Numbered from the stretch's first letter, positions 169-63,940 are shown. The stretch: 64,000 bases of DNA from Planctomycetota bacterium (GCA_027063065.1 JAMOSO010000007.1:8918-72917); one strand, 5' to 3'. Numbers and translations: made by a program. The notes: generated by a model not told the origin, from the letters alone.

Positions 169-2097
169 TCATGATATCTTTTTTAATTTAGCTTTAGCTT
201 GTTTATAAAGATATTTGCGTTCAGTATTAATCATCATATTAATATCAGAATCAGTTATGTTATCATCAGATAATAAATTTTTAATAGCTTTTCGTTCGGC
301 AGCGCAAACATTGCCATCGGCTAGTGCTAGGCGTATTAATTGTCTTAAAACCTCATGTGTTTCTTTGTGATTTTTTAGATCTAATTTAAAATCAGGATTA
401 TTTTTAACGTGATTTTCAATGGAATTAAATAGTTTTTGACTAACATTTAATTTGTTTGCCATTTTTAATAAGGTTTCACGTTCTTTTATGTCGCGTTTGC
501 CATCACTATCCATAACTAAAATCATAGCAGCAATTACTTCTTCAATTGGAATGTTATATAGTGGTGCTTCAATTACATCTGGCAATTTGGCTTTGGCTTC
601 GCTTATGGCGTCGTGATAATCTTCGTATTTATATGGTTCAATAGAATCTAAAACCCAATTTTTTAATCCGTCATTTAAAGCTATACCACAATAACTACAG
701 CAGTTGCTACTGTCTACAGTTTCAGGGGCTCCACAGCCTATACAACAATTTGCCGATAGAGCGTGTTTAGGATTGCTAATGGCGTCTTTATGTCGACACA
801 TAATTAATTTATGCTTATATATACGAGAATTTAAAAAGCTGGGTACATCACCTGGTCCAGGTTTAGATTCTTGCCAACATCCAGACCAAGTTACTATAAT
901 ATGGCAACGATTCATATCTGCTTTATTATCAAATCTAATAATTTCCACTGAGCCCACTGCTAAATCTTGTGCAAAAGTACGCATACCTTTTTGGTTTAAT
1001 TGAAATTCGTTTTTGTGGATATTTAAAAATTTATTATTTGCCATTTTACTTAAATATTTAGCATTACAAAAATATCTCGCACTGTGATATCGCCAAAACA
1101 TAATAGAGGCTCTATCTTCTAGGTATTGAATATTTAATGCTTTATCTTGTTGTTTTAATTGGCTTGCTCCAGCAATTAAGTCTGGATTACGATGTTGAAA
1201 TGCTTTAGCTTGGGTTATTTCTGAAAGTACCCAATCATATTCGCCACTGGTAATTAAGGCCTGACAAGACATACATTCTATTTTATCTGATAGCTTTAAT
1301 GGTGATCCGCAGTTTGGACAAAACCCTTCAATCGCACCGCCTTGTTGTAATGTTTTAGTTCCTGGTTTGCGTAAAAACGACCAGTATTCTTTAAAGATAT
1401 CTGTCGACAAAGAATATTTTTTATCTGAGCCTTCTTTAATATAATAATCTGCAGCAGATGCACTAATTGCTACAATAATGACGTCAAAAAATTCATCGCA
1501 TTTATATGATACTACATGTGCATCTTTAATGTCGATATCGGTAATTTTATTAATATATCCATTGGCTTTGTTTAATTCTAAATTTAGGTTTAATCTATCG
1601 TAGATGGCATCACTTAACATGCTTCTAACAGGAGACATGTTTTGGTTGTTCCAAGAATTTTGTAAAGCAAGAAAGGTTTGCTTGGCGCGTTCTAAAAATT
1701 GAATTTCATCAAAATTATTATCACGTTGAATTAATTTGTTTTTTTCATTGCGATTCATTGCAACATCATATTTGGCATTGCCTGTAGTGATGACATGGCT
1801 TTTATAAGAGTTAGCACCTCGTTGTGTACCAACTAAGCTAATATAACCACCTATTAATAACATAGGTATTCCAATTAATGGATGTTCAAGGCATAACCTA
1901 ATTAATAAATATAATATTAAACCATCGCCAGAACCACCGCTGGAATGGCCTCCAGAGTATCCACCGCTAGAATGGCTACTACCAAAGTTACCGCCACCGC
2001 CCATGCGTGCCCAAGTTTCGCTGGGCATAAATAATAGAATTATTAACGAGGCAAAGTATATTTGCCTCGGGGTTATTAAGCTTGTGAGTTTCCGCAT
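169..2097 (-). CDS. Membrane Tim44-like domain protein with zinc ribbons and TerB-like C-terminus
   Basis: About 642 aa from ATG at 2097; a TTG nine bases upstream is less likely. Domain order: a signal or anchor segment near residues 10-30; a Gly/Ser/His-rich linker; a second hydrophobic segment near 60-90; a Tim44-like domain near 135-230 (FLERAKQTFLALQNSW...DVIIVAISASAADYY); a zinc ribbon CPNCG...CMSCQ; a further domain; a second ribbon CIGCG...CSYCG; and a helical TerB-like tail (MDSDGKRDIKERETLL, LALADGNVCAAERKAI). The start overlaps the end of the upstream SPFH/zinc-ribbon gene by 22 bp, so the two are probably co-transcribed and coupled. Tim44-like and TerB domains suggest a membrane-associated scaffold or stress role, but no function is assigned to this architecture. 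Confidence 0.7.
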   Translation of the reverse strand: MRKLTSLITPRQIYFASLIILLFMPSETWARMGGGGNFGSSHSSGGYSGGHSSGGSGDGLILYLLIRLCLEHPLIGIPMLLIGGYISLVGTQRGANSYKSHVITTGNAKYDVAMNRNEKNKLIQRDNNFDEIQFLERAKQTFLALQNSWNNQNMSPVRSMLSDAIYDRLNLNLELNKANGYINKITDIDIKDAHVVSYKCDEFFDVIIVAISASAADYYIKEGSDKKYSLSTDIFKEYWSFLRKPGTKTLQQGGAIEGFCPNCGSPLKLSDKIECMSCQALITSGEYDWVLSEITQAKAFQHRNPDLIAGASQLKQQDKALNIQYLEDRASIMFWRYHSARYFCNAKYLSKMANNKFLNIHKNEFQLNQKGMRTFAQDLAVGSVEIIRFDNKADMNRCHIIVTWSGCWQESKPGPGDVPSFLNSRIYKHKLIMCRHKDAISNPKHALSANCCIGCGAPETVDSSNCCSYCGIALNDGLKNWVLDSIEPYKYEDYHDAISEAKAKLPDVIEAPLYNIPIEEVIAAMILVMDSDGKRDIKERETLLKMANKLNVSQKLFNSIENHVKNNPDFKLDLKNHKETHEVLRQLIRLALADGNVCAAERKAIKNLLSDDNITDSDINMMINTERKYLYKQAKAKLKKIS

Positions 2098-3182
2098 TCT
2101 GGGCAAAATTTAGCAGTTGGAGAAAGTAGCGCATTACAGTTCTTGCAGTGCATTTCTTGGGCAGCCCCACACAGTGGACAAAATTTAGAGTCTTTAGGAA
2201 TAGCTTGATTGCATTTTACACAGCTTTGTTCTTGTATGTGTAACGATTGGCCGCATCCACCACAAAATTTAGCATTGCTAGGTGATTGTTGTTGGCATTT
2301 AGGGCAGATTATAACTTCTTTTGGTTGTATTTGCTCTTGAGCTTTACCCATCATTCCGCCAAGATTAGCACCTACCATCATACCCATCATGTCCCCAGTG
2401 CCTCCTTGGTTATTGGCAGCATCTCTTAAAGCTTTTGCTTGTTGGTATTGGGCATATTGATTTAAATTGCCAACGGCGCTCATTGATGCGCGTTCGTCAA
2501 TGGCATTTTGTACGTCATCTGGCAAGCTGATGTTTTCTAGGGTAAAAGATAATAGCTCTAATCCCATTTTGATGAAATAGCCATTTAATTTTGTTTTTAT
2601 AGCATCACTTATTTCATCATATTGTGCAGCTAAATCTAAGGCTGGTATTTTAAGCTCTGCGATTGCATCCGAAAATGATGATACAATTTTAGTACGCACT
2701 TGATCTTCTAGAGCATCGGCAAAAAACTCTTCGCCAGCTCCTACAAATCGACTTAGCATATTTTCTTGTTCACCAATTTTATAAGAATAATTACCTCTAC
2801 ATCTTAATCTGACAATGCCAAAGTCAATATCGCGTAACATAATTGGATTTGGAGTACCCCATTTGCGATTTAATTGTTCTGTAGTATCAATAAAATAAAT
2901 TTCAGCTTTGAATGGCGAATTAAACCCATATTTCCATCCATATAAGGTGGATAGTATGGGCATATTTTTGGTTTCTAGCGTATATGTACCAGCTTCAAAC
3001 TGATCGGCAATTTTGCCTTCACGCACAAAGATGGCTTTTTGGCCTGGACGCACAATAAGTTGTGCTCCCATTTTGATTTCATTTTGATAGCGATTAAATC
3101 TATGTACCAACAAACCGTCTGTTTTATCAGTCCATTCAATAATATCTATAAATTCATTTTTTAATTTATTAAATAATCCCAT
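2076..3182 (-). CDS. SPFH domain protein with three C-terminal zinc ribbons
   Basis: 368 aa. The N-terminal two thirds is a cytoplasmic SPFH (band 7) domain of the kind often annotated virion-core-like: LIVRPGQKAIFVREGK, then TYTLETKNMP, and further on LLSFTLENISLPDDVQNAIDERAS. A Gly/Met-rich linker (TGDMMGMMVGANLGGMMG) leads to three CxxC...CxxCG ribbons: CPKC..CGGCG, CVKC..CPLCG and CKNC..CPECG. The ATG follows an AGGAGG-like Shine-Dalgarno (minus strand, about 3183-3189). It is the first gene of a two-gene unit with the Tim44/TerB protein. Family knowledge suggests an oligomeric membrane-microdomain scaffold; the partner is unknown. Confidence 0.8.
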   Translation of the reverse strand: MGLFNKLKNEFIDIIEWTDKTDGLLVHRFNRYQNEIKMGAQLIVRPGQKAIFVREGKIADQFEAGTYTLETKNMPILSTLYGWKYGFNSPFKAEIYFIDTTEQLNRKWGTPNPIMLRDIDFGIVRLRCRGNYSYKIGEQENMLSRFVGAGEEFFADALEDQVRTKIVSSFSDAIAELKIPALDLAAQYDEISDAIKTKLNGYFIKMGLELLSFTLENISLPDDVQNAIDERASMSAVGNLNQYAQYQQAKALRDAANNQGGTGDMMGMMVGANLGGMMGKAQEQIQPKEVIICPKCQQQSPSNAKFCGGCGQSLHIQEQSCVKCNQAIPKDSKFCPLCGAAQEMHCKNCNALLSPTAKFCPECGNSQA

Positions 3183-46415: not shown

Positions 46416-48035
46416 TTAATGTGCGGCGTAACGCCAAAAGACTTCCATAGAAAGTGTATTAAAACAAGTTACACCGGTTCTGCCTAATTTATTTTCTCCA
46501 TGCTGATGTCCTTTGACGGCGTCTACAGCCCAGCTACCATTAGTTAAACCACCTGACTTGTCTTGAGTTGGAGGCAGACATTTTAACATACCATCACGCC
46601 AGGTTTTCCAATATTTACCACCCATTTGAAAATTTACTAATGCGCCATAATACATGGCATAATAGCCGTTTGCTCGATTTTCTTTGCCTGTTGGTCTGGT
46701 TGGAACGTATTTTTTACTTAATAAATATTTTGCTGGTTTTACCAATTGTGGATCGGTTTTTTTCATGCCAAAAAATTCTTTAATACACATAACTACTAAC
46801 GTCATAGTAGGGGTGCCAAAGTTGGCGTGTCCTTTTAATGGGGACTGATAGTTGCCCTGAAAATTTTTCTTGCCATCTGTGGTAGCGCGGTCAAAAGCAG
46901 CTAAAGCTTTTTTGATTTTTCGTTCATTTAATTTTAAATGAGCTAGTTTAGCAGATTTTATTGCCATCATTTGCCAGCCAGCAACAGACGTGTCATTTTT
47001 TCCATCTGGCTGTTTTTTATTTTTTGTTTCTCCAGTGGAGTATCCCCACGAACCCGCATTGTTTTGTGCGGCAAAGACCCAGTTGATGGCTTTTTGAGCC
47101 GCCGCTTTGGTTTTGCTTTTGTTAGCCATAGCTGCTGCTTCTGCTAATGCCATAGTGGCTATACCATTGATGTAAGTTCCTCCATGTCCAAAACCGCCGT
47201 CATTTTTATGTTGTTGTTTTAATAAAAATTTAATGGCGTTTTTAACATTTTTACGATATTTACCCGCTATTTCAGTATGGCCAGCCCCTAAAAAACAAAG
47301 TACAGCTAAACCTGTGATTGCAATATCATTTTTATCAGGTTGGGGATTGGCATTGGGCTCTTTTGACCAAGAACCATCATTTCGTTGTACGCGGGCTAAA
47401 TATTTTAAAGCGCTTTCAACTGTTTCAATTACTTGTTTGCCACCGCCACCTCTAGCAACAGCTTTTCTGCGTCCTTTTTTGGAACCACGAGCAGCTAACA
47501 TACCACCTTTAATGGCTCCGCCAGCATCGCCTACGCCAAATACGCCTAATTCTTCGCCTCCTACTGGTGCGTCAAACGAAACATCTGATATTTGTTCGTC
47601 GGATACTTCGGTTTCTTCAAAGGCGTCAACTTCAATGTCGGTTTCTACTTCGATATTATCTTCTACTACTTCTTCTTCAACAACATCGTCAACTTCAACG
47701 TCATCAACTTCGACTTCTTTTTCTTCTAACTTTTCTTTTAATTCTTCTTTTTCTTTGTCTTGTACTTGTTCAATCATTTCTGATTGCACAACAACAACCT
47801 CTTCTTGATCTTTTGCTTTCATAGTTACTATTAATGTCATTAAAAAAATAACAACTCCGTGGGCAGCAAAAGAAATAAACCACCATGGTGATGATTTGAT
47901 TTGGTCATCAATAATTTGTTTAAGGCTCTTTTTTTCGTAAAAACTTTCAATCAACTCATTATGACCACTATATTCACCTTCATGAATTTCCTCTTCGTGG
48001 TTTGGTGTTTCGTCAATTTCTTGATTGTCTGACAT
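46416..48035 (-). CDS. Membrane-anchored toroid-repeat protein with acidic linker
   Basis: 539 aa from ATG at 48035, preceded by GAGGA; an upstream TTG is unsupported. A cytosolic acidic start (EIDETPNHEEEIHEGE) leads to one membrane segment near 54-74 (WWFISFAAHGVVIFLMTLIV) and a very acidic Val/Glu/Asp linker of about 80 residues. A Gly/Arg patch (GSKKGRRKAVARGGGG) follows, then prenyltransferase/squalene-oxidase-like repeats: LARVQRNDGSWSK, LLKQQHKNDGGFGHG, FAAQNNAGSWGYSTG. The layout recalls TonB/ExbD-like anchors fused to a toroid. It heads the toroid/YdjY/Ebo run. Confidence 0.75.
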   Translation of the reverse strand: MSDNQEIDETPNHEEEIHEGEYSGHNELIESFYEKKSLKQIIDDQIKSSPWWFISFAAHGVVIFLMTLIVTMKAKDQEEVVVVQSEMIEQVQDKEKEELKEKLEEKEVEVDDVEVDDVVEEEVVEDNIEVETDIEVDAFEETEVSDEQISDVSFDAPVGGEELGVFGVGDAGGAIKGGMLAARGSKKGRRKAVARGGGGKQVIETVESALKYLARVQRNDGSWSKEPNANPQPDKNDIAITGLAVLCFLGAGHTEIAGKYRKNVKNAIKFLLKQQHKNDGGFGHGGTYINGIATMALAEAAAMANKSKTKAAAQKAINWVFAAQNNAGSWGYSTGETKNKKQPDGKNDTSVAGWQMMAIKSAKLAHLKLNERKIKKALAAFDRATTDGKKNFQGNYQSPLKGHANFGTPTMTLVVMCIKEFFGMKKTDPQLVKPAKYLLSKKYVPTRPTGKENRANGYYAMYYGALVNFQMGGKYWKTWRDGMLKCLPPTQDKSGGLTNGSWAVDAVKGHQHGENKLGRTGVTCFNTLSMEVFWRYAAH

Positions 48036-48103
48036 AATTATCCTCAAATTACAATTGTAAGTTTACAAATGATTTACGCTTTAAAATTCAAAAGGTTCAA
48101 AAA

Positions 48104-48805: not shown

Positions 48806-49765
48806 ATGAAGATTATAAGCCTTAGCTACAATACTTTTTTAGAGATAATACGTCAGCCATTTTTCAGTTTAATTCTGATAAGTACGGCTGCGATTATCGC
48901 TTTGTCACCCGCTTTTACTTTTTTTACTTTGATGGATTCTACAAAGTTGGTGCAAGATATGTCATTGGCAAATATGTTGTTGGCAGGTTTGTTTTTAGCT
49001 ATTTTTTCTGCTGGGGATTCATTGGTTAGAGAATTACAACACCATACAGTGCTTACGTTATTGTCTAAGCCTATGGGCAGAAGTAGTTTTGTAATAGGTA
49101 AATTTTTGGGTATTTTGGCTTCACAGGCTGTGAGTTTTTATGTGTTGACAGTTGTAAGTTTATTGGTGGTTAAGTTTGGCACGCAAGATGCAAATTATAT
49201 AATATTAGAAACGCAATGTATGATATTGCTTGTAATTGCTTTTTTATTGACGCTTATTATAGCTGCTACCATGAATTTTTTAGCCAATAAAGTGTTTTTA
49301 TCTACTGCGGTGATAGTTGCTATTCCGATGTTTACATTGGCTTTGATAGGCGGGGCTTTATTGGATCATAATTGGAGTTTTATTGTTTTTGGATCTGATA
49401 TTAAATGGGATATTGCATTAGCGGGGGCATTAGCTTTTTGTGCCTGTGCAATTTTGTCTGCCGTAGCCATTACTTTGGCAACTAGATGCAATTTAACCTT
49501 GACGGCATTAGGTACTATTTTAATCTTTTTTATTGGATTAAGTGTTAGCTTTGTAACCAGTCATGTAATTTCTGTGTCTTGGATGTCAAAGTTTATGATG
49601 GCTGTTGTTCCTGATTTTCAAATGTTTTGGGTTGCCGATGCTCTTAATTTAGGTTCTCATATACCTTTTAATTATTTATTATTGTCAGCTAGTTATGCTT
49701 TAAATTGTATCGTTGCCATTTTAGCATTGGGCTGTTGGCTTTTTTCTTGTACTGAGGTTAGTTAA
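48806..49765 (+). CDS. ABC-2 type permease, first gene of the SPFH/ATPase locus
   Basis: 319 aa. Six or seven membrane segments. The N-terminal loop carries LVRELQHHTVLTLLSKPMGR and FVIGKFLG, the same signature as in the permeases at 6079 and 8514. No ATPase precedes it; the nearest candidate is the ABC ATPase at 55469, four genes on. Its stop overlaps the next start (TAATG), so it is coupled to the HflK-like gene. No obvious Shine-Dalgarno precedes its own ATG. Export substrate unknown. Confidence 0.78.
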   Translation: MKIISLSYNTFLEIIRQPFFSLILISTAAIIALSPAFTFFTLMDSTKLVQDMSLANMLLAGLFLAIFSAGDSLVRELQHHTVLTLLSKPMGRSSFVIGKFLGILASQAVSFYVLTVVSLLVVKFGTQDANYIILETQCMILLVIAFLLTLIIAATMNFLANKVFLSTAVIVAIPMFTLALIGGALLDHNWSFIVFGSDIKWDIALAGALAFCACAILSAVAITLATRCNLTLTALGTILIFFIGLSVSFVTSHVISVSWMSKFMMAVVPDFQMFWVADALNLGSHIPFNYLLLSASYALNCIVAILALGCWLFSCTEVS

Positions 49766-51618
49766 TGCTTGAATTACAACCAGATCAATCACTTGTTTCT
49801 CATAAGCGCGCTTTAGCTATGTCTGCTTTTGGTCTATTTTTTACTATTATATTAGCAGTTGGTTTTTTTGTATGTGATATGCAAGTACCAAACGTGGGTA
49901 CAGAGGCTACATCATGGATATTAATAGTGCTTGCTTGTTCTTGGTTATATCCATTGTTGGAGCTTTATTTAGAAACACGAGTGGATAGAGAGGCTATTGA
50001 TATTGAATATTTAAAAAGTCAAAGTAGCCAAGGTAACTTATTTGACGATGCTGATGATTATTCTGCTGCTGCTAGGTTAAAATTAGTGAAGTTTTGGTTA
50101 GTTCCAATATTTGCTTTATGTATGGGCGTGCTTTCTTTAGTTTTGTCCTTTTATGTGTGGCACTTAAAAACAGACAAAAATATAATTATAGATCAAAATT
50201 CATTGGTAATTACAGGTTTTATACAAGCTTTCATAGGTTTTATTTTATTTATTTTTGCTAGATTTTTGGCAGGCTTAGCATCTCAATCTGGGTATGGTAT
50301 TTTAAGATCTCCTGCTGGGTTAATGATGTTATCTGCTTGGGCTGCATTATTATCGGCAATTGCTAGAGCAGGTAATTATATGAATTGGCCTATCGGATCT
50401 GTTGCGCTTGGATATATATGTGCAGTAGTTCTAGGTTTATATGCTTTAGAAACCTTGGGTGGTGTTGTATTGCATATTTATAGTAATCAAAAACAAACTA
50501 GGCGACCTCCGCAGGATTCACGTTTATTGTTTATTTTGGCTTCTCCGAGCCGTATTGCTAAAAGTATAGGAGATGTCTTAGATTATCAATTTGGGTTTGA
50601 AATTTCAAAAAGTACCATGTATCGTGCGTTTGAAAAGGGAATAGCACCATTTTTGATAGCGCAAATTATTATATTATGGCTGTGTAGTTCTATTACTATT
50701 ATTGATGCTGGATATGTAGGTTTTGTAGAGCGTTTTGGCAAACGGGTTAGCAAAATACCGCTAGAGGCAGGTTTGCATTTTAATTTACCTTGGCCAATTG
50801 ACAGTATACGCAAAGTTAATGTTGGCAAGGTGTATGCTATGCAATTGGGTTTATTGAATGAAAAACAAGAAATTAGAATATGGACTACAGAACATGGTCA
50901 AGCTGAAGAGTCTATGGTGGTTGCGTCTGCAGAATCAGTAGGTGATGAAGTCCCTGTAAATTTATTGGCAACCAGTTTTGCTTTAATTTATAAAATTCGG
51001 CCAAACAGGGCTGTTGTATGGGCATATAATTATGCCAATGCAAAGGATTTATTTGAAAGTAGGGCTAAAGCAGCTTTGACAAGGTATTTGACAACGGTTG
51101 ATTTTTTTAAAGTGATGGGAGAGGGAAGGCGTAAGGAAGCAAAGCGTTTAACTACAAAATTAGAGGCTATTGCAAATTCGATGGGTGTTGATTTAGCTTA
51201 TGCAGGTTTTGTAGGTGTGCATCCACCTGTTGAGGTTGCAGAAAGTTATGAAGCTGTAGTTAAGGCAGATGAAGCCAAGCGGGCAAGGTTGCTACAGGCA
51301 GAATCGACTAAAAATAAGTTAAGTACATCTGCGGGTTATGAGGCAAAGGTTATCGAGTTAAATGCTCAGGGTCAGGCTGCTGGTATTGTGGCATTAGCTA
51401 AAGGTGATGCTGGTCGTTTTGGTTCACAATTAATAGGATATAAAGAGGCTCCAAAATTATATAAAATTCGTAGGCGACTAGAGATGCTAAAAGTAGCCAT
51501 GACAAAAAGCAGAAAATATATAGTTCCAGAAGGAAAAGATAGAGTAGATATTTTAAATTTAGAAGAAAAATTAAGAGCTGATATTACAGATTTAGACTTA
51601 AATAGTTTAGCGAACTAG
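49765..51618 (+). CDS. HflK-like SPFH protein with multi-pass N-terminus
   Basis: 617 aa, longer than E. coli HflK (about 420). The first 290 residues hold about six membrane segments, unusual for this family. The SPFH part begins with a further segment near 290-315 (IIILWLCSSITIID, then GYVGFVERFGKRVSKIPLEAGLHFNLPWPIDSIRKV, read in parts). After it come YAMQLGLLNEKQEIRIWTTEHGQ, an oligomerisation helix rich in Ala and charged residues, and LRADITDLDLNSL at the end. HflK/C complexes form cages around membrane proteases such as FtsH. It is the first of three consecutive SPFH genes. Confidence 0.8.
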   Translation: MLELQPDQSLVSHKRALAMSAFGLFFTIILAVGFFVCDMQVPNVGTEATSWILIVLACSWLYPLLELYLETRVDREAIDIEYLKSQSSQGNLFDDADDYSAAARLKLVKFWLVPIFALCMGVLSLVLSFYVWHLKTDKNIIIDQNSLVITGFIQAFIGFILFIFARFLAGLASQSGYGILRSPAGLMMLSAWAALLSAIARAGNYMNWPIGSVALGYICAVVLGLYALETLGGVVLHIYSNQKQTRRPPQDSRLLFILASPSRIAKSIGDVLDYQFGFEISKSTMYRAFEKGIAPFLIAQIIILWLCSSITIIDAGYVGFVERFGKRVSKIPLEAGLHFNLPWPIDSIRKVNVGKVYAMQLGLLNEKQEIRIWTTEHGQAEESMVVASAESVGDEVPVNLLATSFALIYKIRPNRAVVWAYNYANAKDLFESRAKAALTRYLTTVDFFKVMGEGRRKEAKRLTTKLEAIANSMGVDLAYAGFVGVHPPVEVAESYEAVVKADEAKRARLLQAESTKNKLSTSAGYEAKVIELNAQGQAAGIVALAKGDAGRFGSQLIGYKEAPKLYKIRRRLEMLKVAMTKSRKYIVPEGKDRVDILNLEEKLRADITDLDLNSLAN

Positions 51619-51625
51619 GAGAAAA

Positions 51626-52522
51626 ATGCGTTCTAAACCCCTTACATTACTTATTGCTTTAGGTATTACATTAACCTTAGTTATTTATTTGCTTGCATTT
51701 CAAGTAAGTCAAACGGAACAGGCGGTTGTTTTTAGCTTTGGAAAACCGCAACGGCCTATTACTGAGGCAGGTTTCTATTGGAAGTGGCCTGCGCCAATTC
51801 AGACAGTTAGCACTTTTGAAAAACGTCTTCAAGTTTTTCGTGGGAAATTAGAGCAGGGTATTACCCGTGATGGTAAAAATTTAATTTTAGAAACAGCTGT
51901 TGTGTGGAGGATTGTTGAGCCATTAAAATTTTATACAAGTGTTGGCGAGGTAAGTGTTTTTGAAAATCGTTTTGATGCAATGATTAGATCGGCAGATAAA
52001 GCTGTGTTGGGTATGTATAAATTGGCAGATTTAATTAATGTAAATCCAAAGGTAATCAAATTGGATGCTTTTGAAAACCAAGTTCTCGGTGAGGTAAAAA
52101 CACAAGCTGCAAAACGATTTGGCGTTGAAATCACAGACTTTAGTATTGAACGTATAGCCTTTCCAGAGTCTACTACGCAAGAGGTATTTAATAGGATGAA
52201 AGCAGAGCGCAGTCGTATTATAGAAAGAATTAATGCCGAAGCAGATGGGGAAGCTCGTGAGATTGAAACTGCCGCCCAGTCAGAACGTGCACAATTATTG
52301 GCCGAGGCCAATGCTAAGGCAAAACAAATAAGAGCGGATGCTGATGCGCAGTCTGCCCAGTATTATAAAGTGTTTAGGCAGAATCCAGATTTGGCAACTT
52401 TCTTATTTGAAATAGATTCTTTGGAAGAAATATTAAAAAGTCGTTCAACAATTATTATGGATACTGGAACAAGTCCATTTACTCAATTAAAACAGGGTAG
52501 TGTTGGAGGTTCTGGTGAGTGA
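51626..52522 (+). CDS. HflC-like SPFH protein
   Basis: 298 aa. One N-terminal membrane segment (LTLLIALGITLTLVIYLLAF), then SPFH: TEQAVVFSFGKPQRPITEAGFYWKWP (read as QAVVFSFGKPQRPI), FEKRLQVFRGK, LILETAVVWRIVEPL. An oligomerisation helix is rich in Ala/Glu (RIIERINAEADGEAREIETAA, read as AEADGEAREIETAAQ). The length is close to E. coli HflC (334). A Shine-Dalgarno AGGAGA precedes the ATG and the gap from the HflK-like gene is 7 bp. Coupled to the next SPFH gene by an 8-bp overlap. Confidence 0.88.
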   Translation: MRSKPLTLLIALGITLTLVIYLLAFQVSQTEQAVVFSFGKPQRPITEAGFYWKWPAPIQTVSTFEKRLQVFRGKLEQGITRDGKNLILETAVVWRIVEPLKFYTSVGEVSVFENRFDAMIRSADKAVLGMYKLADLINVNPKVIKLDAFENQVLGEVKTQAAKRFGVEITDFSIERIAFPESTTQEVFNRMKAERSRIIERINAEADGEAREIETAAQSERAQLLAEANAKAKQIRADADAQSAQYYKVFRQNPDLATFLFEIDSLEEILKSRSTIIMDTGTSPFTQLKQGSVGGSGE

Positions 52523-53567
52523 AGATAAAAAAATAGCAACAAATCCAGCTTTTGAAGCTTTAGCTGGTGCGTTGCAGACTTCATTTATAGTTTTAAAAGC
52601 CATTATGTTATTGATTGTTTTAGCTTATATATTTTCTGGAATGTATATGGTTAAAAGTTATCAACAAGCAATGGTTTTTAGATTTGGTAGATTAGATAGA
52701 ATAGAATCAGACGGTTTGCATTTTGCTTGGCCAGCACCTATTGAGCGTGTTGAAAAAGTATCGGTTAGACGAGAACAAAGTTTTGCAATTAAAGATTTTT
52801 ATTTTAAATCTACAGCTGATGGTAAAAATAGTGCTGTAGGTAAGACTTTATCGCCTGTGACAGATGGTTATTTAATTACAGGTGATACCAATATTGTACA
52901 TGCTTTAATGACAGTGCATTATCGATTAAGTGATTTACGCAGTTATTACAATACAGTTGGAACTGTAGAAAAAGAACATAGATTACTTAAATTGGCAGTA
53001 AAAAATGGTGCTGTAATTGCCGGCGCTACTATGGCAGTTGATCCATTGTTGCGTCATGGAGCAATTAGTTTTAAAGATGCTATTGAGTTTTCTGCAAAAA
53101 ATTCATTAAAAAACTGGGGCACGGGCATCGAAATAGCCTCGGTAGAAGTGAGTATAGTTCCGCCACGACAGGTTAAAAAAGAGTTTGATAAAGTTTTATT
53201 GGCCGAACAAAACAAATCAGAAGAGATGTCTAAGGCTAAAGGAAAGGCTCAACGGATACTTAATCAAAGCAGAGGCGATGTCAGTGCCGTTTTGGCATCG
53301 GCCAAGACGTTGGCAGCGCAATCTTTGGCGCAGGCACGGGCAGATGCTAAATATTTACAAACCATTATAAATAAGTATGGCAAGGATAAGACAGCGTTAA
53401 ATTTATTTGTTGTTAATACACGTTTTGCACGTTTAAAGCGTATTTTAAAGCAGGTGGAAGCTAAGTATTTTTTGCCTGATGGTGGTAAAGAATTACGTTT
53501 GCGATTGGGCCTTGATCCACAGCGCATAAATAAAGATGCAGAGGAGTCAGAAAATGACAGAGGCTAG
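52515..53567 (+). CDS. Third SPFH (HflK/HflC-like) protein
   Basis: About 350 aa from GTG at 52515, which follows GGAGG (52505-52509) at the right distance; an upstream GTG is less well placed. One N-terminal membrane segment (FIVLKAIMLLIVLAYIFSG), then SPFH: QQAMVFRFGRLDRIESDGLHFAWP (read as QAMVFRFGRLDRIES), IVHALMTVHYRLSDLRSYY, and an oligomerisation helix with AKGKAQRILNQS. An extra insertion near 90-125 (FYFKSTADGKNSAVGK) is not seen in the other two. It overlaps the P-type ATPase start by 14 bp. Confidence 0.82.
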   Translation: MSEDKKIATNPAFEALAGALQTSFIVLKAIMLLIVLAYIFSGMYMVKSYQQAMVFRFGRLDRIESDGLHFAWPAPIERVEKVSVRREQSFAIKDFYFKSTADGKNSAVGKTLSPVTDGYLITGDTNIVHALMTVHYRLSDLRSYYNTVGTVEKEHRLLKLAVKNGAVIAGATMAVDPLLRHGAISFKDAIEFSAKNSLKNWGTGIEIASVEVSIVPPRQVKKEFDKVLLAEQNKSEEMSKAKGKAQRILNQSRGDVSAVLASAKTLAAQSLAQARADAKYLQTIINKYGKDKTALNLFVVNTRFARLKRILKQVEAKYFLPDGGKELRLRLGLDPQRINKDAEESENDRG

Positions 53568-55476
53568 ATGTTGTAATGCGTCAGCGCAGTTAGAAGCAGC
53601 TATGGATAGTTGTGATGAGCATGATGGGCATGATCATTCCTTGTCTAAAATAGGAATTATTTCTGTGTTTGGAGGTTTGGCGTTTTTTTTAAATTCCTTT
53701 TTGGCAGAAATATTTTTTGGAGGTGATTTTTACCCTCAATTTTTTGCATTAATTGCTGCTGTTTTCATTGGCGCTCCTTTGGTTTTTGGTGCGGTAAAAG
53801 CTTTGATTCATGGTCATTTACACATGGAAGAACTAGCTGCCTTGGCGGTAATTGCTTGTATTAGTCTGGAGGATTATCGCACCTCTGCAGTGGTGGCATT
53901 TTTAATGTTAACTGCTAATTTAATTGAATCTCGACAGGCAAAAGGTGCATTTAAGGCTATTGAAGGTTTGATTAAATTAACTCCTAAAAATACATTAGTA
54001 AAACGTGATAATGATTTTATTGAAATCCAAGTATCAGAATTATCTATAGGTGATATTGTAAAGGTTTTACCTGGGGATTCTTTTCCAGCTGATGGGGTTA
54101 TTATAAAAGGCGAAACAACTATCAATGAAGCCCCTATTACAGGTGAGTCATTGCCTGTAGAAAAAGGAGCCAATGATGAGGAGTTGACTGTATTTGCAGG
54201 GACGGTTAATTTGACAGGGGCGGTAGAAGTTAAGATAGATAAATTAGGTGGCAATACTCTTTTGGGGACAGTACGTGAATTAATTTTAAAAGCTGGCTCT
54301 ACAAAAATAGCAGTTACAAAAATAGTTGATAAATATATAGTTTGGTATACACCAGTTGTCTTGATGTTGTGTGCTGTTATTTTGTTTTTTACAAAAAATA
54401 TGTATGCGGCTATTACAACATTGGTGATAGTGTGTCCTTGTGCTTTTATCTTGGCTACGCCAACAGCTATGATAGCGGCGCTTTCTGCTGCTGCCAAATC
54501 AGGAGTATTGGTAAAAAATGCAGTCGATCTTGAAGAAGCAGCTAATATAGATGCGGTTGTTTTTGACAAGACAGGTACATTAACCACAGGTAATTTGGAG
54601 GTTTTTAAAATAGAACCATTTGATATAAATCCTATTGAATTTTTAAAAATATCCAGTTCAGTAGAACTGCATTCACGCCATCCTGCTGCGCTTGCAGTTG
54701 TTGGCGCGGCTAAGCGTGCAAAGATAGATGCTGAAAATATAGAAGATTTTGAAGAGGTGCACGGCAAAGGTGTTAAAGCTAAATATCAAGGTTCAAACAT
54801 CATAATAGGTAGAGCTACATTTTTGCAAGAAAATGCGATTACAGTGCCAAAGGATAAGTCGGATTTAGTTGCTTCTATTTTACATGTTGCTAAAAACGGT
54901 AAATATATAGGCAGAATCTTAATGGCTGATAAAATGCGTACTGAAGCTAAAGAGGCTGCTCAAGAATTGCGTGATATTGGTGTAGGTAATTTGACTATGC
55001 TTACAGGTGATCGTTGGGAAGTAGCTAATAGCATAGGTAAGGAGCTAGGCTTTACTAAGGTTGAGGCGCAGTGTTTGCCAGAGCGTAAACTAGAAGTTGT
55101 AGAAGAAATAAAAGCCCAAGGGCGTACGGTGGCAGTAGTAGGTGATGGTATAAACGATGCTCCAGCTTTAGCTGCAGGTAATTTAGGTATCGCCATGGGT
55201 GCTTTAGGTAGTGATATTGCTATACATTCGGCATCAATTACTTTTATGTCTAGCGATTTAAGACGTTTACCATTTCTAATAGCTTTATCAAAACAAACAC
55301 GCAAGATTATTTATCAAAACTTTATTTTTGGGATTGTATTTATTGTTATGGGAACTGGCTTAGCTATTAGTAATTATATAGAACCGATGCAAGCCGCTTT
55401 ATTACATAATATAGGTTCGTTTTTTGTGATTTTTAATTCAGCTAGATTATTGCGCATGGAGCAAAAGAATGTCTGA
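53554..55476 (+). CDS. CPC-type heavy-metal P-type ATPase
   Basis: 640 aa from ATG at 53554, preceded by GAGGAG; an earlier ATG at 53536 lacks one. The N-terminus has a His/Asp/Cys-rich start (CC at 6-7, DEHDGHDHS at 21-29) in place of a full GMTCxxC domain. About six membrane segments. P-type motifs: TGES (186-189), VIVCPCAF with CPC at 284-286 (P1B heavy-metal transport), DKTGTLT at 328-334 (Asp328 phosphorylated), SRHP (HP motif) and GDGINDAPAL. The metal (Cu, Zn, Cd or other) is not decided by sequence alone. Coupled to the SPFH gene upstream and the ABC ATPase downstream. Confidence 0.9.
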   Translation: MTEARCCNASAQLEAAMDSCDEHDGHDHSLSKIGIISVFGGLAFFLNSFLAEIFFGGDFYPQFFALIAAVFIGAPLVFGAVKALIHGHLHMEELAALAVIACISLEDYRTSAVVAFLMLTANLIESRQAKGAFKAIEGLIKLTPKNTLVKRDNDFIEIQVSELSIGDIVKVLPGDSFPADGVIIKGETTINEAPITGESLPVEKGANDEELTVFAGTVNLTGAVEVKIDKLGGNTLLGTVRELILKAGSTKIAVTKIVDKYIVWYTPVVLMLCAVILFFTKNMYAAITTLVIVCPCAFILATPTAMIAALSAAAKSGVLVKNAVDLEEAANIDAVVFDKTGTLTTGNLEVFKIEPFDINPIEFLKISSSVELHSRHPAALAVVGAAKRAKIDAENIEDFEEVHGKGVKAKYQGSNIIIGRATFLQENAITVPKDKSDLVASILHVAKNGKYIGRILMADKMRTEAKEAAQELRDIGVGNLTMLTGDRWEVANSIGKELGFTKVEAQCLPERKLEVVEEIKAQGRTVAVVGDGINDAPALAAGNLGIAMGALGSDIAIHSASITFMSSDLRRLPFLIALSKQTRKIIYQNFIFGIVFIVMGTGLAISNYIEPMQAALLHNIGSFFVIFNSARLLRMEQKNV

Positions 55477-56374
55477 TGCTCTTGTTGTAGATGTTAGAGA
55501 AATCAGCAAAACGTTTCGTGATTTTTGGATGCGCCCTAAAGTCAAGGCAGTTCGCAATATTAATTTTACGATTAAACAGGGCGAAATATTTGGATTATTA
55601 GGGCCTAATGGTGCAGGTAAATCCACAACTATAAAGATGCTTTTAGGGTTGTTGTTTCCAGATAGAGGACAAATATCTATTTTAGGCAACCATCCCCGTG
55701 CTAATGCTGTTAAAAAATTTATTGGTTATATGCCAGAAGAAAGCTATTTGTATCCATATTTAAGTGCAGAAGAAACATTGCGATTTTATGGTAAAATTTT
55801 TGGTTATTCATCTAAAAGTTTACAAATAAGAGTAGATAGTTTGTTGGAAATGGTAGGTTTAAAAGGAGCTTCTCAACGACCTATTGGTGAGTTTTCTAAA
55901 GGTATGGCTAGACGCATTGCCCTTGCTCAGGCTTTAATGAATGATCCTCAGTTAATTATCTTAGATGAACCAACAACAGGTATGGATCCATTGGGAAATA
56001 GAGAATTTAAAGAATTGATTTTACACCTTAAACAAAAGGGTAAAACAATTATTATTTGCTCTCACTTGCTTTCTGATATGCAAGACTTATGTGATACAGT
56101 GGCAATATTCTATGGAGGTACTATTGTTAGTAATGGTGCAGTTAAAGATTTATTAAGCCCTAATCAAACATTAGAAGATTACTTTTTAAGTGTAGTTGAC
56201 GATGCTAGTGCTAAATTTAATACGGGCGGTGCTAAGGTTGGTGATTTAACTAATAGTATATTTGAACAATCTACTGCAAATGCTAAAGAGGCCTCTGTAC
56301 CCGCGGAAGTGGATGAAGTATTAGAAACAAACGATCCAAATCAAGATGTTATTGATGAGTTATTAGGTAATTAA
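55469..56374 (+). CDS. ABC transporter ATP-binding protein of the SPFH/ATPase locus
   Basis: 301 aa. Walker A GPNGAGKST near 45-53, Q-loop region IGYMPEESYL, signature FSKGMARRIALAQAL near 140-154, Walker B LIILDEPTTGMD near 160-171, and CSHLLSDMQDL with the switch His. The C-terminal extension after residue 220 is acidic and low-complexity. The ATG overlaps the P-ATPase stop by 8 bp with GGAG just before it. It probably energises the permeases at 48806 and 56416. Confidence 0.92.
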   Translation: MSDALVVDVREISKTFRDFWMRPKVKAVRNINFTIKQGEIFGLLGPNGAGKSTTIKMLLGLLFPDRGQISILGNHPRANAVKKFIGYMPEESYLYPYLSAEETLRFYGKIFGYSSKSLQIRVDSLLEMVGLKGASQRPIGEFSKGMARRIALAQALMNDPQLIILDEPTTGMDPLGNREFKELILHLKQKGKTIIICSHLLSDMQDLCDTVAIFYGGTIVSNGAVKDLLSPNQTLEDYFLSVVDDASAKFNTGGAKVGDLTNSIFEQSTANAKEASVPAEVDEVLETNDPNQDVIDELLGN

Positions 56375-56415
56375 TGTTTTTTACAAACATAGTTAAAATT
56401 TGATTTGAATAGTTT

Positions 56416-57741
56416 ATGCATACTTTAACAGCAATTATAAAACTAACTTTAATAGAGTTTGTACGAAGGCGCATACCTTTGGTTATGGGATTGTTTTTTT
56501 TGGTTATGGTTTATGCCATTCCATATATTGTTATAGGCGACGGTACTGTAAAAGGTAATTTTCAATTAATTTTGACTTATACGTTGGGTTTTACAACTTT
56601 CTTTTTAGCCGTATTTAATATGTTCTTGTCAGTAAATGTATTGCGTAAAGATTGGCGAGATAAAGTATTATTTGTTTTAGATTCAAAGCCTGTGGCGCGT
56701 TATCAAGTATTATTAGGAAAGTTTATTGGACTTTGTATTTTAAATGCTTTTTTACTTGCGATTGTTTATGGGTTTACTTTATTTAATATAAATTCATTAG
56801 AGCGCGACTATCAAAAGCAAGCTTCGTTGAATAAACATTTAGATTTAATGCCTGGTGATTTGTCAGATGCTAAGGCAACTGTGCTCTCAGCTAGATCGCC
56901 ATTAAAACCGTTATTAAACAAAATGATAGTTAAGTATCAAAAGGAAAGGAAAAAAACCATTTCTATTAAATCAGGTAAGTGGTTTCACTGGCAGTTTAAG
57001 CCTGAAGAAGTGTCAAAAGATGTTAAAAGTTACACTTTACGTTATAAATTTTATACATCATCAACAACAGACACTTATAAAGTAAGGGCTACTTGGATTA
57101 TCGGCAATCCAACTAAAGATGGAGGGTTCATACGTTTGATCACAAATAATTCAGTTAATTTGTATCATGAACTAAAAATCCCAGCAAAACTTTTTAAGAA
57201 AGATGAAATTTTGCAAGTTAGCTTAGGAAATTTTAATAAGGATTCTATTTTAGTAAAAATTAAGGATGGATTAGTTGTTTTAGTGCAAGACAGAAGTTTT
57301 ACATTTAACCTACTAATAGCGTTTGTTATTTTATTTATACAGGTTATTTTTTTGGCGGCCATTGGGTTGTCGTTTAGCACTTGTTTATCATCTAATGTGA
57401 GCCTTTTATGTGTATTAGCCTTTTATGTTTTATTGTTAAGCGGTGGTATAGTAAAAGATTTAACTCATTCTAAAATATTGCCAAAAGAACAACCAACCAT
57501 ATCCGCATTTGATAAAGGGTATAATTTATATACTAAAAGTTTAGCCTCTGTAGTTTCGGTGATGTTACCAGACTATGTTGAATTATCTCCTATGGATCAA
57601 ATTAGCCGTGGTGTAACAATCGGTGGGAGTTTTCTGTTGTTTAATGTTGTAGGTATAGGGCTTAGATTGTTATTAGTTTTGTGTTTTGCTTGTATTGTTT
57701 TTGCTACGCGCGAACTTGGCTTAATTCAGGATATTTCATAA
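56416..57741 (+). CDS. Large ABC-2 type permease with extracytoplasmic loop
   Basis: 441 aa. Six or more membrane segments. The cytoplasmic loop has LRKDWRDKVLFVLDSKPVAR and QVLLGKFIGL, the same signature as the other permeases. An unusually long soluble segment (about residues 130-295) lies between the early and late membrane segments and is probably extracytoplasmic (includes WHWQFKPEE-like beta-rich stretch). It follows the ATPase by 41 bp. Its stop overlaps the ATG of the next gene (TAATG). Confidence 0.8.
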   Translation: MHTLTAIIKLTLIEFVRRRIPLVMGLFFLVMVYAIPYIVIGDGTVKGNFQLILTYTLGFTTFFLAVFNMFLSVNVLRKDWRDKVLFVLDSKPVARYQVLLGKFIGLCILNAFLLAIVYGFTLFNINSLERDYQKQASLNKHLDLMPGDLSDAKATVLSARSPLKPLLNKMIVKYQKERKKTISIKSGKWFHWQFKPEEVSKDVKSYTLRYKFYTSSTTDTYKVRATWIIGNPTKDGGFIRLITNNSVNLYHELKIPAKLFKKDEILQVSLGNFNKDSILVKIKDGLVVLVQDRSFTFNLLIAFVILFIQVIFLAAIGLSFSTCLSSNVSLLCVLAFYVLLLSGGIVKDLTHSKILPKEQPTISAFDKGYNLYTKSLASVVSVMLPDYVELSPMDQISRGVTIGGSFLLFNVVGIGLRLLLVLCFACIVFATRELGLIQDIS

Positions 57742-59096
57742 TGCGTCATTTATTATTATTGATAGTATTGAGTTGCGTAGTTATTAATTATTCTTTGGTA
57801 GATAGATTGCATATACAGCGTGATAAAAATGCGTTATCAGCAATGCCTTCTTTACAGGGTGTGCCACCTGAAATTATATTTGCAACAACAGCCTTGGGAG
57901 CGTTTAGAGGGTTGTTGGTAGATGCTTTATGGTTGCGTGCAACATCTATGAGGGATAGAGGAGAGTTTTTTGAATTGGTTCAATTAAGTGATTGGATAGG
58001 TAAGTTAGAACCAAGAATGCCAAAAATATGGTCTTTTAATGCGTGGAATTTAGCATATAACATATCGGTAGAGTTACCGACTTCAGCGGAGCGTTGGAAT
58101 TGGGTTAATCAGGGTATGAAAGTTTTAAAAGAAAAAGGAATACCTTACAATCCAAAATGTGCAGATTTATACGAGGAATTATCTTGGATTATCTATCATA
58201 AAATAGGTCAATATACAGATGATCATAATAATTATTATAAATTGCGTTTAGCGGATGAAATTGATCGTGTTATGGGTTCAAAGTCCGCAACAGAGATTTT
58301 AGAGAAATATCCCGATATGGCTAAGCGTATAAAAGACGAATTAAGTTTAGATGTGTCTTTTATGGTAGAGTTAGAAAATAGGTTTGGTTTTTTTGATTGG
58401 CGTTTTCCAGATGCTTTAGCAATTTATTGGGCTCAAAAAGGCAGGCCGTTTGCCAAGGCTAATACGATAAAAAATATGGATCGAATTACTTATTCTGGAT
58501 TGCAAAATTGTTTTAGGCGTGGCCGTTTGTTTATAGCTCGTGATGATAATGGTAATGCTATTTCATTTTATTCAGTACCAAATTTTAGCTTTGTAAATGC
58601 TGTTATTAAATTGTTTGAAGCCAATCTAAAATCTTTTGGACGTAAGGTAGGGGTGGTCTCGGCTTATAAATATTTTTTGGAAGAGGCCTTAACAACAGCT
58701 TATATTTATGGTGATAAAAAAACAGCCAGTATAATTATGTTAAAATTACAAGAGCAGTTTCCAAAAGATAAAAAATATAAAAAATCATTTAATACTGTGG
58801 CACAGAGGTTGTTGATGGAGGGGATAAAAGAGGCTAATAGAGATGATTTATATAATTATATAACAGGTTATTTGACCAATGCGTATGTTCATTTGGGCTG
58901 GGGCGAATCAGAGGCTTCAAAGCAAATGGAATTTATTGCTGCCAAATTATATAAGTATTTTGAAAAGACTTTTCAATCTAAAGGGCAAACATTGCCAAGG
59001 TTTGATTTGTTGCGAACACAAGCATTACGTCAGGCTAATATGATTTTGCCTCATAAGCTGCGTATGAAAATGGAACTAATTAAAAAAATGGAGTAA
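57741..59096 (+). CDS. Membrane-anchored helical protein of the SPFH/ATPase locus
   Basis: About 451 aa from ATG at 57741, preceded by an AGGAT within the upstream gene; a longer open frame starts inside the permease. One N-terminal hydrophobic segment (LLLLIVLSCVVINYSLV), then GVPPEIIFATTALGAFRGLLVDALWLRA and a long helical region with Trp and Tyr-rich spacing (SFNAWNLAYNISVELPTSAERW, read as IWSFNAWNLAYNIS). It corresponds in position and plan to the protein at 6819. No named family; an exporter-associated periplasmic subunit is an inference. Confidence 0.55.
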   Translation: MRHLLLLIVLSCVVINYSLVDRLHIQRDKNALSAMPSLQGVPPEIIFATTALGAFRGLLVDALWLRATSMRDRGEFFELVQLSDWIGKLEPRMPKIWSFNAWNLAYNISVELPTSAERWNWVNQGMKVLKEKGIPYNPKCADLYEELSWIIYHKIGQYTDDHNNYYKLRLADEIDRVMGSKSATEILEKYPDMAKRIKDELSLDVSFMVELENRFGFFDWRFPDALAIYWAQKGRPFAKANTIKNMDRITYSGLQNCFRRGRLFIARDDNGNAISFYSVPNFSFVNAVIKLFEANLKSFGRKVGVVSAYKYFLEEALTTAYIYGDKKTASIIMLKLQEQFPKDKKYKKSFNTVAQRLLMEGIKEANRDDLYNYITGYLTNAYVHLGWGESEASKQMEFIAAKLYKYFEKTFQSKGQTLPRFDLLRTQALRQANMILPHKLRMKMELIKKME

Positions 59097-59101
59097 TTAT
59101 A

Positions 59102-60637
59102 ATGCAATGCGGTAAAGCAACCACAGAAGCAACTAAAATATATACAGAAACAAAAGATATGCCAAATAGTATATTGGGAAAAACAGGACTAAGCGTATCT
59201 CAAATAGGTTATGGCGCTTACAGGGTAGAGGCTCATGAAGACGCGCATTATGACGCTATGACTAAGGCCTTTCAAAATGGCTTTAACTTGGTAGATACAA
59301 GCGCTAATTATACAGACGGACGTTCTGAGGAGCTAGTTGGTGTAGTAATTGACGATTTAATTGATGCTAAGGATATTAGGCGTGAGAATATAGTCGTTGT
59401 TACTAAAGGTGGTTATATTCAGGGTGAAAATTTAACTATATCACGAAAACAGCAATCAGAGGGCATCGCTTGGGATGATTTAGTGCCATATAGCGATCAT
59501 TTAGAGCATTGTATACATCCAGACTTTTTAAAAGATCAGATATATAGATCTCTGTCTAATATGGGCTTAGACTGCATTGATGTGTATATGTTGCATAATC
59601 CGGAATATTTTTTAGATTGGGCAAGAAAAGAGGGCTTGGATTTAATTAAATCTCGTGAGATTATGTATAAACGCATAAAGGATGCTTTTGTGTTTTTAGA
59701 ACAAGAAGTGTCTGCGGGTAGGATTGCTTGGTACGGTGTTAGTGCAAATACTTTTATTGCACCAAGCAATGATTTTGCTTTTCTTTCGGCTAAAAAACTT
59801 TTAGAAATAGCAAATGAAGTCTCTGAAAATCATCATTTTGCCGTAATAGAATTTCCTGTGAATTTAATGGAAAGTCATGCTGTTACATTAAAAAATCAAG
59901 ATGAGGAGTCTTTGTTGCAGTGGGCGGTTAAAAATAATATGGGCGTTTTGGTCAATAGACCATTAAACGCGTTAAGAGCAGATGCTATGATTAGATTGGT
60001 AGATGTTGAAGAGCGTGGTTTAGCTAGTGAAGGTGAAATTATATCAGCTATTAAGGCTGTAACTGATGAAGAAAACGAATTATTGCAAAGATATATCAAG
60101 CCAATGAAGCTAGCGGAATCAGTAGAAAAGCAAGTTGTTGAAATGATTTCTGTCGGACGTGATTTGTCTCAAATATGGAAAAATTTTGCCTCTTGGGATC
60201 AATGGCGGTGGAGTCAAGAACAGTTTTTTATGCAACGTGCGCAAAATGCCATTAAATTTCTTTTAAATCAGCTTGGGGATACAGTGGATCTCAGGCAGGA
60301 TTTGGAGCATTTTGTTGCTACTTTATCGTCCGCTTTAGAGGCGGTGGATTCTGTATACCGTATAAAGGGAGCGGATGATATTAATAAGTTAAAGGATGCA
60401 GTTGCTAAGGCGGATAAGGATTGGTCAGTAAATATTAATATGAGTCAGTTGGCTGTGCGAGCCTTGCGTAGTACTTTTGGCATACATACGGTTTTGGTTG
60501 GTATGCGAAATGTAAAATATGTCGATGATATGTTAGAAGAGGTGAAAGTTTTAATTGATCCAAAAGATAGAAGCGTGTCCTGGCAACAGCTAGATGAAAA
60601 TCTTGAGGCCATACAAAAAAATTCGGCACACAAATGA
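59102..60637 (+). CDS. Aldo/keto reductase with extended C-terminus
   Basis: 511 aa; the usual length is near 330. Residues 20-300 are the TIM barrel: LGKTGLSVSQIGYGAYRVE, NLVDTSANYTDGRSEELVG (catalytic Asp and Tyr of D...Y), VVTKGGY, then YMLHNPEYFLDW with the HNPE-type His. The remaining 200 residues are helical (LLQRYIKPMKLAE, SWDQWRWSQEQFFMQR) and contain MSQLAVRALRST and TVLVGMRNVKYVDDM, which is the barrel end, so the helical region is an insertion rather than a tail. 5-bp gap from the anchored protein. Substrate unknown. Confidence 0.82.
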   Translation: MQCGKATTEATKIYTETKDMPNSILGKTGLSVSQIGYGAYRVEAHEDAHYDAMTKAFQNGFNLVDTSANYTDGRSEELVGVVIDDLIDAKDIRRENIVVVTKGGYIQGENLTISRKQQSEGIAWDDLVPYSDHLEHCIHPDFLKDQIYRSLSNMGLDCIDVYMLHNPEYFLDWARKEGLDLIKSREIMYKRIKDAFVFLEQEVSAGRIAWYGVSANTFIAPSNDFAFLSAKKLLEIANEVSENHHFAVIEFPVNLMESHAVTLKNQDEESLLQWAVKNNMGVLVNRPLNALRADAMIRLVDVEERGLASEGEIISAIKAVTDEENELLQRYIKPMKLAESVEKQVVEMISVGRDLSQIWKNFASWDQWRWSQEQFFMQRAQNAIKFLLNQLGDTVDLRQDLEHFVATLSSALEAVDSVYRIKGADDINKLKDAVAKADKDWSVNINMSQLAVRALRSTFGIHTVLVGMRNVKYVDDMLEEVKVLIDPKDRSVSWQQLDENLEAIQKNSAHK

Positions 60638-62995: not shown

Positions 62996-63940
62996 TTAAC
63001 CTTGTAAGGTCAAATCTTGTTTGGCTAATTCTTCTTTTATCTCTAGGATAGCACTGACACCCATATTTTTTATTTGTGAGAGTTCTTCTTCATTCTTTTC
63101 TATTAACTCACTAATTAAGTTTATGCCTGCTTGAGATAGTCCACGTTTTACTCTGGTTGATAATTCAAGAGTGTCTATAGGGCGTGCGTTAGGGTCGCTA
63201 GATTCGCTTATTTGTGCTACGCGTCCGTCTAATTTCATACCGAAATATAAATTGTGGCTTTTTAGTAGGATTTTTATTTCTTTTAAAGAAGTGTCACCGA
63301 AGTTCTTGAAAGACAACATTTCTTGTTCTGTTTTTGTAACTAAATCGCGTAAAGAATTGATTTTGATGCGTTTTAAACAGTTGCGACTTCTAACAGATAG
63401 TTCAAATTCGTTAACGGGCATATCCAAAATATGATTTAATGCGTCATCGCTTTGTCCTGGTGCGTTAGTAACAGCCATACTTTTTGATGAGGCTATATCG
63501 TTTCTTAGTTTGATAAACGCTGTGTTTGTTGGGTTTATTTTTAATGCGTGATCTATGCATTGTTGTGCTAGTTCATATCTGTTTTGATCGTTTAATAAAA
63601 CGGCCAAATTATATATTGCATTAATTGGGCATTCTGGTTGGGCAACTAATTTTTTGTAATGTTCAATTGCTAAGTCGTCACAGCCAGTTCGTTCAAATAG
63701 ATAAGCTAATCTAAAGCGCGCCAAGTTATTATCTGGGTTTTGTGCTACACAGTCTTCTAGCATCTCAAGGGCATTGGCGGTGTCTCCCATGACCTCTGCC
63801 ATCATTGCTTCTACTACTTGCAATTCGTTGCTGCTTTCTAATTCAGCACGTTTAGATTTAAAAAGGTTCTCGGCTTTTTCAATTTCACCAATTTGAATTT
63901 GTTGGCTAATGTCCTGGTAAGCGGATGATGCTATAGACAT
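62996..63940 (-). CDS. TPR protein with two RNA-polymerase-alpha-CTD-like domains
   Basis: 314 aa. Residues about 1-150 are TPR-like helices (NALEMLEDCVAQNPDNNLARFRLAYLF, read as MLEDCVAQNPDNNLARFRLAY; RYELAQQCIDHALKINP). Two helix-hairpin-helix alpha-CTD-like domains follow: LSVRSRNCLKRIKINSLRDLVTKTEQEM...NFGDTSLKEIKILL, and LSTRVKRGLSQAGINLISELIEKNEEEL...NMGVSAILEIKEEL (read in parts). This is not rpoA itself, which lacks TPRs. I recall this combination in Planctomycetota and Lentisphaerota. The TPRs could bind a partner while the CTDs bind DNA; role unknown. GGAGAA precedes the ATG. Confidence 0.8.
   Translation of the reverse strand: MSIASSAYQDISQQIQIGEIEKAENLFKSKRAELESSNELQVVEAMMAEVMGDTANALEMLEDCVAQNPDNNLARFRLAYLFERTGCDDLAIEHYKKLVAQPECPINAIYNLAVLLNDQNRYELAQQCIDHALKINPTNTAFIKLRNDIASSKSMAVTNAPGQSDDALNHILDMPVNEFELSVRSRNCLKRIKINSLRDLVTKTEQEMLSFKNFGDTSLKEIKILLKSHNLYFGMKLDGRVAQISESSDPNARPIDTLELSTRVKRGLSQAGINLISELIEKNEEELSQIKNMGVSAILEIKEELAKQDLTLQG

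Follow-up and report, generated by a model that had tools for sequence, protein, structure and literature searches.

We analyzed a 64,000-nucleotide stretch of DNA from a Planctomycetota bacterium (GCA_027063065.1, JAMOSO010000007.1:8918-72917), here called the window, and a run of eight genes within it that may encode an SPFH assembly for metal export. The genes (positions 48806-59096) are all on the plus strand, and neighbors either overlap or are separated by no more than 41 bp. They include three SPFH genes and a heavy-metal ATPase, a block that recurs in relatives from several phyla, some of which carry SPFH domains fused to metal exporters.

The first gene, P1 (48806..49765), encodes an ABC-2 type permease (ABC2_membrane_2, 32.6 bits against a cut-off of 27.2). 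A TAATG junction at 49763-49767 leads into K (49765..51618), which encodes one fusion protein with a CDF-fold membrane domain (residues ~10-245, window 49792-50499), an SPFH domain (Band_7; residues 312-514, window 50698-51306) and a coiled coil. After a 7 bp gap comes C (51626..52522), an HflC-type SPFH protein (Band_7), which overlaps by 8 bp the GTG-started gene for S3 (52515..53567), an HflK-type SPFH protein (Band_7). S3 overlaps by 14 bp the gene for a P1B-type heavy-metal ATPase (53554..55476; TIGR01525, 504.8 bits, cut-off 346), and an 8 bp overlap joins this to abc (55469..56374), an ABC transporter ATP-binding protein (ABC_tran, 115.7 bits). P2 (56416..57741), an ABC-2 type permease with a long loop (ABC2_membrane_2, 33.4 bits, cut-off 27.2), follows after 41 bp and meets T8 (57741..59096) at a second TAATG. 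T8 is a membrane-anchored helical protein that had no match in Pfam or NCBIfam; its AlphaFold2 model (pLDDT 90.1) is a TPR-like helical superhelix, with weak TPR matches in the PDB. Together, abc, P1 and P2 supply the ABC ATPase and ABC2_membrane permeases of an ABC-2 exporter. The open reading frame calls, junction coordinates and Pfam and NCBIfam scores agree with a sequence-only reading of this DNA, which had described eight tightly packed plus-strand genes, TAATG or overlap junctions at most boundaries, and permeases, SPFH proteins, a CPC-type P-ATPase and an ABC ATPase.

Promoter and terminator motif matches at the locus showed no excess over shuffled sequence, so the case for a single transcript is made by the gene overlaps alone. 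A ninth gene, for an aldo/keto reductase, starts at 59102, 5 bp past the run, and could be co-transcribed with it. The genome is 2.13 Mb and 90% complete. The same reading had stated that FtsH is absent; this holds within the eight-gene run, and one FtsH gene lies elsewhere in the genome, on contig C62.

A K alignment scanned against named genomes found at least 561 relatives; we retained the 80 best, most of them from Verrucomicrobiota, Planctomycetota, Lentisphaerota and Kiritimatiellota. We counted gene order in 94 loci from these four phyla (mostly 25-34% identity), taking in just those where the contig has room for the neighbor; the loci are the best K matches, and the fractions describe window-like clusters. 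Profiles of all eight proteins show that the order P1-K-C-S3-ATPase-abc-P2-T8 recurs repeatedly. K is followed by C in 82/91 loci, C by S3 in 76/78, S3 by the ATPase in 65/71, the ATPase by abc in 47/61, abc by P2 in 50/53, and P2 by T8 in all 47. P1 lies upstream of K in 73/88 loci, on the same strand in 57 and divergent in 16. Since the arrangement is kept across phyla, we conclude from these comparisons that it is not chance; loss of gene order in related genomes, which would have spoken against a coupled locus, was not what we found. A scan of IMG/VR with K returned zero relatives.

In a tree of SPFH domains that included Escherichia coli HflK and HflC, C groups with HflC, S3 falls near HflK, and K forms its own clade; this was a quick tree in which the three-way split is supported and the finer order is not. 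C passes the curated HflC cut-off (TIGR01932, 136.3 bits against 134.4). S3 scores 111.0 bits against the HflK family (TIGR01933), which is under the cut-off, and we therefore call it HflK-type from its tree position and do not assign it as HflK. K is classified on the same grounds as a separate SPFH type, not HflK. Thus the name HflC-like given earlier to C stands, while the labels HflK-like (K) and third SPFH (S3) should be exchanged in light of the TIGR01933 scores and the tree. In a profile search, no protein in the window genome reached the HflK cut-off. The window also holds a second SPFH locus (169-3182, minus strand), where a zinc-ribbon SPFH protein (Band_7_1) overlaps a Tim44-like/TerB-like protein.

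The AlphaFold2 model of K, built with 32 orthologues (mean pLDDT 78), has six membrane helices, one more helix, the SPFH domain and a long coiled coil. In Foldseek, the second half matched HflK/C, stomatin and prohibitin; the matches of the first half, to ZnT3, YiiP and SLC30A10, were weak. Aligned to YiiP with VIA-align, the N-terminal half gave a Z of 19.9 (2.9 Å over 202 residues), which exceeds the usual helical background. In an hhalign profile comparison, the first 250 residues matched the CDF domains of the fusion proteins described below (94.3%, E 9.6e-08, collinear across 198 columns), and a permease decoy in the same comparison scored 0.3%. K had no Pfam CDF match. The six-helix CDF membrane fold is present in the model and the CDF metal ligands are not: the ligand positions in helices 2 and 5 (H/DxxxD and HxxxD) read I52, L56, L186 and S190 in the hhalign alignment, and no conserved D, E, H or C was found at them. 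The N-terminal half of K is thus a CDF-derived domain without a metal site. We rejected K as an intact CDF transporter on the loss of that site.

The ATPase has the E1-E2 and hydrolase domains, the DKTGT motif and the CPx motif of a P1B-type ATPase and is the sole E1-E2 (P-type) ATPase found in the window genome. The cluster ATPases fall into a single clade, where those from Verrucomicrobiota, Kiritimatiellota and Lentisphaerota group by phylum. There are two apparent outsiders. One (G056) sits at the edge of a contig and supplies the rest of a cluster gene that is truncated where another contig stops; the other (G002) is an unlinked copy within the cluster clade, in a genome whose cluster itself has no ATPase. 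Both confirm the single clade. The membrane site reads CPC (54433-54441), not the SPC of P1B-4 ATPases, and a His in the last helix aligns with the HEGST of 7qbz (P1B-4). We do not predict the metal, because a P1B-4-like last-helix motif is here combined with CPC instead of SPC. No HMA domain was found in this ATPase.

Two members of the SPFH-pump block often carry His-rich tails, defined as at least 6 His in 20 residues: S3 in 21/78 orthologues and the ATPase in 23/66. Such tails are absent from the 226 P1, abc, P2 and T8 proteins and from 15 canonical HflK/C proteins. A control set of background open reading frames contained spurious frames and was left out of the comparison. The S3 and ATPase examples inspected are N-terminal. 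Since the N-termini of HflK and P1B-ATPases are cytosolic by known topology, we place these tails in the cytosol. The window ATPase has a milder Cys/His tail, CC...C...EHDGHDH (~53554-53643). His-rich loops also occur within the K SPFH domain (L041, L101). Separately, an HflC-type protein at L147:11550-12599 has a Cys/His-rich N-terminal tail (CCGHNHDHDHKDCKCEHEHDH).

In relatives, an HflK-type SPFH domain is joined to an exporter in a single polypeptide at 21 loci, with three unrelated kinds of exporter. Fourteen are fusions to an SO_0444/ArsP_1 permease (L056, L057, L060, L063, L064, L215-L220, L269, L274 and L275), four to a Cation_efflux (CDF) domain with HxxxD in both helices (L052, L266, L267 and an Aquibium oceanicum plasmid), and three to a P1B-ATPase (L268, L276 and L277). 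Both halves exceed Pfam cut-offs in every fusion so scanned. L057, L064, L268 and the CDF fusions also pass the stricter NCBIfam HflK cut-off, which L056, L060, L063, L276 and L277 miss. HflC and another HflK-type gene lie downstream of the fusion in 19/21 loci (all except L276 and L277). Three CDF fusions (L266, L267 and Aquibium) have HflC, HflK and a P1B-ATPase close by, which is the window layout with an intact CDF domain. The Aquibium genes (L286:9001-17690) are on a conjugative plasmid (NZ_CP018172.1) of a cultured organism, with copper chaperones and a two-component system near the fusion, which is annotated just as an FtsH modulator. We rejected the fusions as read-through products or assembly chimeras, as the open reading frames are uninterrupted in 21 loci, including a single-contig genome (G372) and the complete plasmid. 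A search of plasmids gave no SO_0444-SPFH fusion. At L221-L234, SO_0444-like open reading frames of 600-700 aa have a different N-terminal extension (~240-380 residues), in which no SPFH match was found. Two further permeases were seen: an ArsP_1 permease gene at L046:7719-9263 overlaps the start of a K-C-S3-ATPase block, so that another metal-type permease adjoins a trio, and a stand-alone SO_0444-type permease (419 aa, 309.8 bits) is encoded on contig C31 of the window genome (43597-44526).

The conserved K-C-S3-ATPase order, the single ATPase clade and the covalent fusions to three kinds of exporter bear out the earlier proposal of a link between the SPFH proteins and a metal pump. One other explanation is that the trio of C, S3 and K serves this lineage as its HflKC around FtsH, with the pump merely an operon neighbor or a substrate whose turnover is regulated. 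The tree makes C an HflC-type and S3 an HflK-type protein, and the genome has an FtsH gene and no other HflK above the cut-off, so the trio could be FtsH's only HflKC. FtsH is not in the cluster, however, and this explanation does not account for covalent fusions to three unrelated metal exporters. In addition, two relatives (G044 and G057) carry a plain HflK-HflC pair alongside an exporter-linked trio, so the trios there are a separate line. We regard this explanation as unlikely.

The ABC module is a separable unit. P1-abc-P2-T8 occur together without SPFH or ATPase genes at L288 (G015), L289 (G116) and L294 (G147); no K match was found in G116 or G147, and that in G015 is marginal (E 2e-4). 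In G047, abc-P2-T8 is far away from K-C-S3-ATPase, and four loci (L039, L046, L048 and L051) have K-C-S3-ATPase and no ABC module. We read most window-like clusters as two interleaved modules, in which P1 belongs with abc, P2 and T8 and the SPFH-pump block is nested inside the ABC module. A functional link between the two is likely present but not obligate, judging from gene content. The sequence-only reading had taken the permease before the SPFH genes and the ABC ATPase after them as a sign of one complex; that permease does belong with the ABC genes, but the two blocks come apart, and the exporter as an obligate part of one complex is not borne out. A stricter form, in which all eight genes make one obligate machine whose ABC exporter and metal pump move one substrate serially, could draw on the wide conservation of the eight-gene order and on the nesting of the SPFH-pump block between P1 and abc. 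The stand-alone modules in the K-less genomes, the separation in G047, the ABC-free loci and the lack of His-rich tails on P1, abc, P2 and T8 weaken it, and we hold it to be very improbable.

We consider it fairly probable that the product of the locus is an SPFH assembly housing metal exporters, with the ABC-2 module wrapped around it; co-assembly, enclosure of the pump and the direction of export are what we infer. The SPFH and coiled-coil parts of C, S3 and K would bring these three subunits together as a periplasmic ring or dome, by analogy with E. coli HflK/HflC around FtsH, where 12 HflK-HflC pairs form a cage that encloses FtsH (PMC12005517). The P1B-ATPase would occupy the position of the enclosed client. 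Because its metal site is lost, the CDF-fold domain of K probably anchors or docks the pump rather than transporting. The Cys/His-rich tails on the ATPase, and on S3 in many relatives, probably collect metal on the cytosolic side. The computed results are the domain content, the fold, the conservation of gene order, the fusions and the His-rich tails; the cage geometry we infer.

Several observations weigh against this assembly. The metal site is absent from K's CDF domain, so the role proposed for that domain is a guess. Many forks are open in the quick SPFH tree, and both S3 and K (88.1 bits) are under the HflK cut-off of 159.4 bits. P1B-ATPase fusions are few, and two of the three (L276 and L277) have no HflC or second SPFH gene nearby. 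Three loci (L042, L044 and L156) have no ATPase beside K, and five that are Lentisphaeria-like, several from rumen (L135, L137, L139, L140 and L152), have K alone, with C, S3 and the ATPase absent from the fetched flanks. SPFH proteins are also widely described as microdomain scaffolds (PMC10434171, PMC12005517), and the trio might form a lipid microdomain or protect the pump against proteolysis without caging it, with the fusions just increasing local concentration. The SPFH half of K matches the structures of cage-forming HflK/C and of prohibitin, yet this match does not discriminate between the readings. We give the microdomain explanation a small probability, slightly below that of an HflKC dedicated to FtsH.

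A broader form of the SPFH assembly for metal exporters is more tentative, and we put its chances somewhat short of even. SPFH rings may be a general bacterial chassis, an HflK/HflC-type cage plus a third, client-carrying subunit, which has repeatedly taken in CDF, SO_0444 or P1B pumps. Export would then deliver metal to a closed-off chamber in the periplasm, and the CDF-fold domain of K would once have been a transporter and would have been retained as a platform on which the P-ATPase docks. What bacterial SPFH proteins are for is still largely an open question; HflK/HflC phenotypes are mild, and the client well known for them is FtsH (PMC12005517). Prokaryotic SPFH proteins have been surveyed (PMC2636767), without mention of an ATPase, a transporter or metal. 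We found no published description of SPFH-metal exporter operons or fusions, in a search that most subscription papers lay outside, so this absence is not proof. Our comparisons suggest that metal pumps, like the protease FtsH, have SPFH scaffolds built around them in bacteria. The widely kept operon and repeated fusions suggest metal pumps as a second class of SPFH client, which predicts a role in metal tolerance.

Elsewhere in the window, two minus-strand genes encode a 314 aa protein with TPR repeats and RNA polymerase alpha C-terminal domains (62996-63940) and a 543 aa protein whose N-terminal half is acidic and which also has a squalene-hopene-cyclase-like repeat domain (46416-48047).

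The locus resembles FtsH-HflK-HflC of E. coli (PDB 7wi3, 7vhq, 9cz2) in having HflC-type and HflK-type subunits, and the SPFH domain and coiled coil of K match those chains. It differs in having no FtsH, a third SPFH subunit that bears a CDF-fold domain, a P1B-ATPase in the operon, and His-rich tails on many S3 orthologues. With CDF zinc exporters (YiiP/FieF and the ZnT family), the N-terminal half of K shares the six-helix fold and profile similarity, but its metal ligands are replaced, it lacks a Pfam CDF match, and an SPFH domain stands in place of the cytosolic domain, which is absent. The window ATPase is like other P1B-type ATPases (ZntA, CopA and the P1B-4 CoaT, 7qbz) in its TIGR01525 score, far above the cut-off, its membrane-site CPC and its last-helix His; unlike them, it pairs CPC with a P1B-4-like His, has no HMA domain that we could find, and belongs to its own SPFH-tied clade. 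The SO_0444 family Cu/Zn efflux transporter (NF033936), which is not in the window locus, is fused in relatives to the HflK-type subunit of the SPFH trio.

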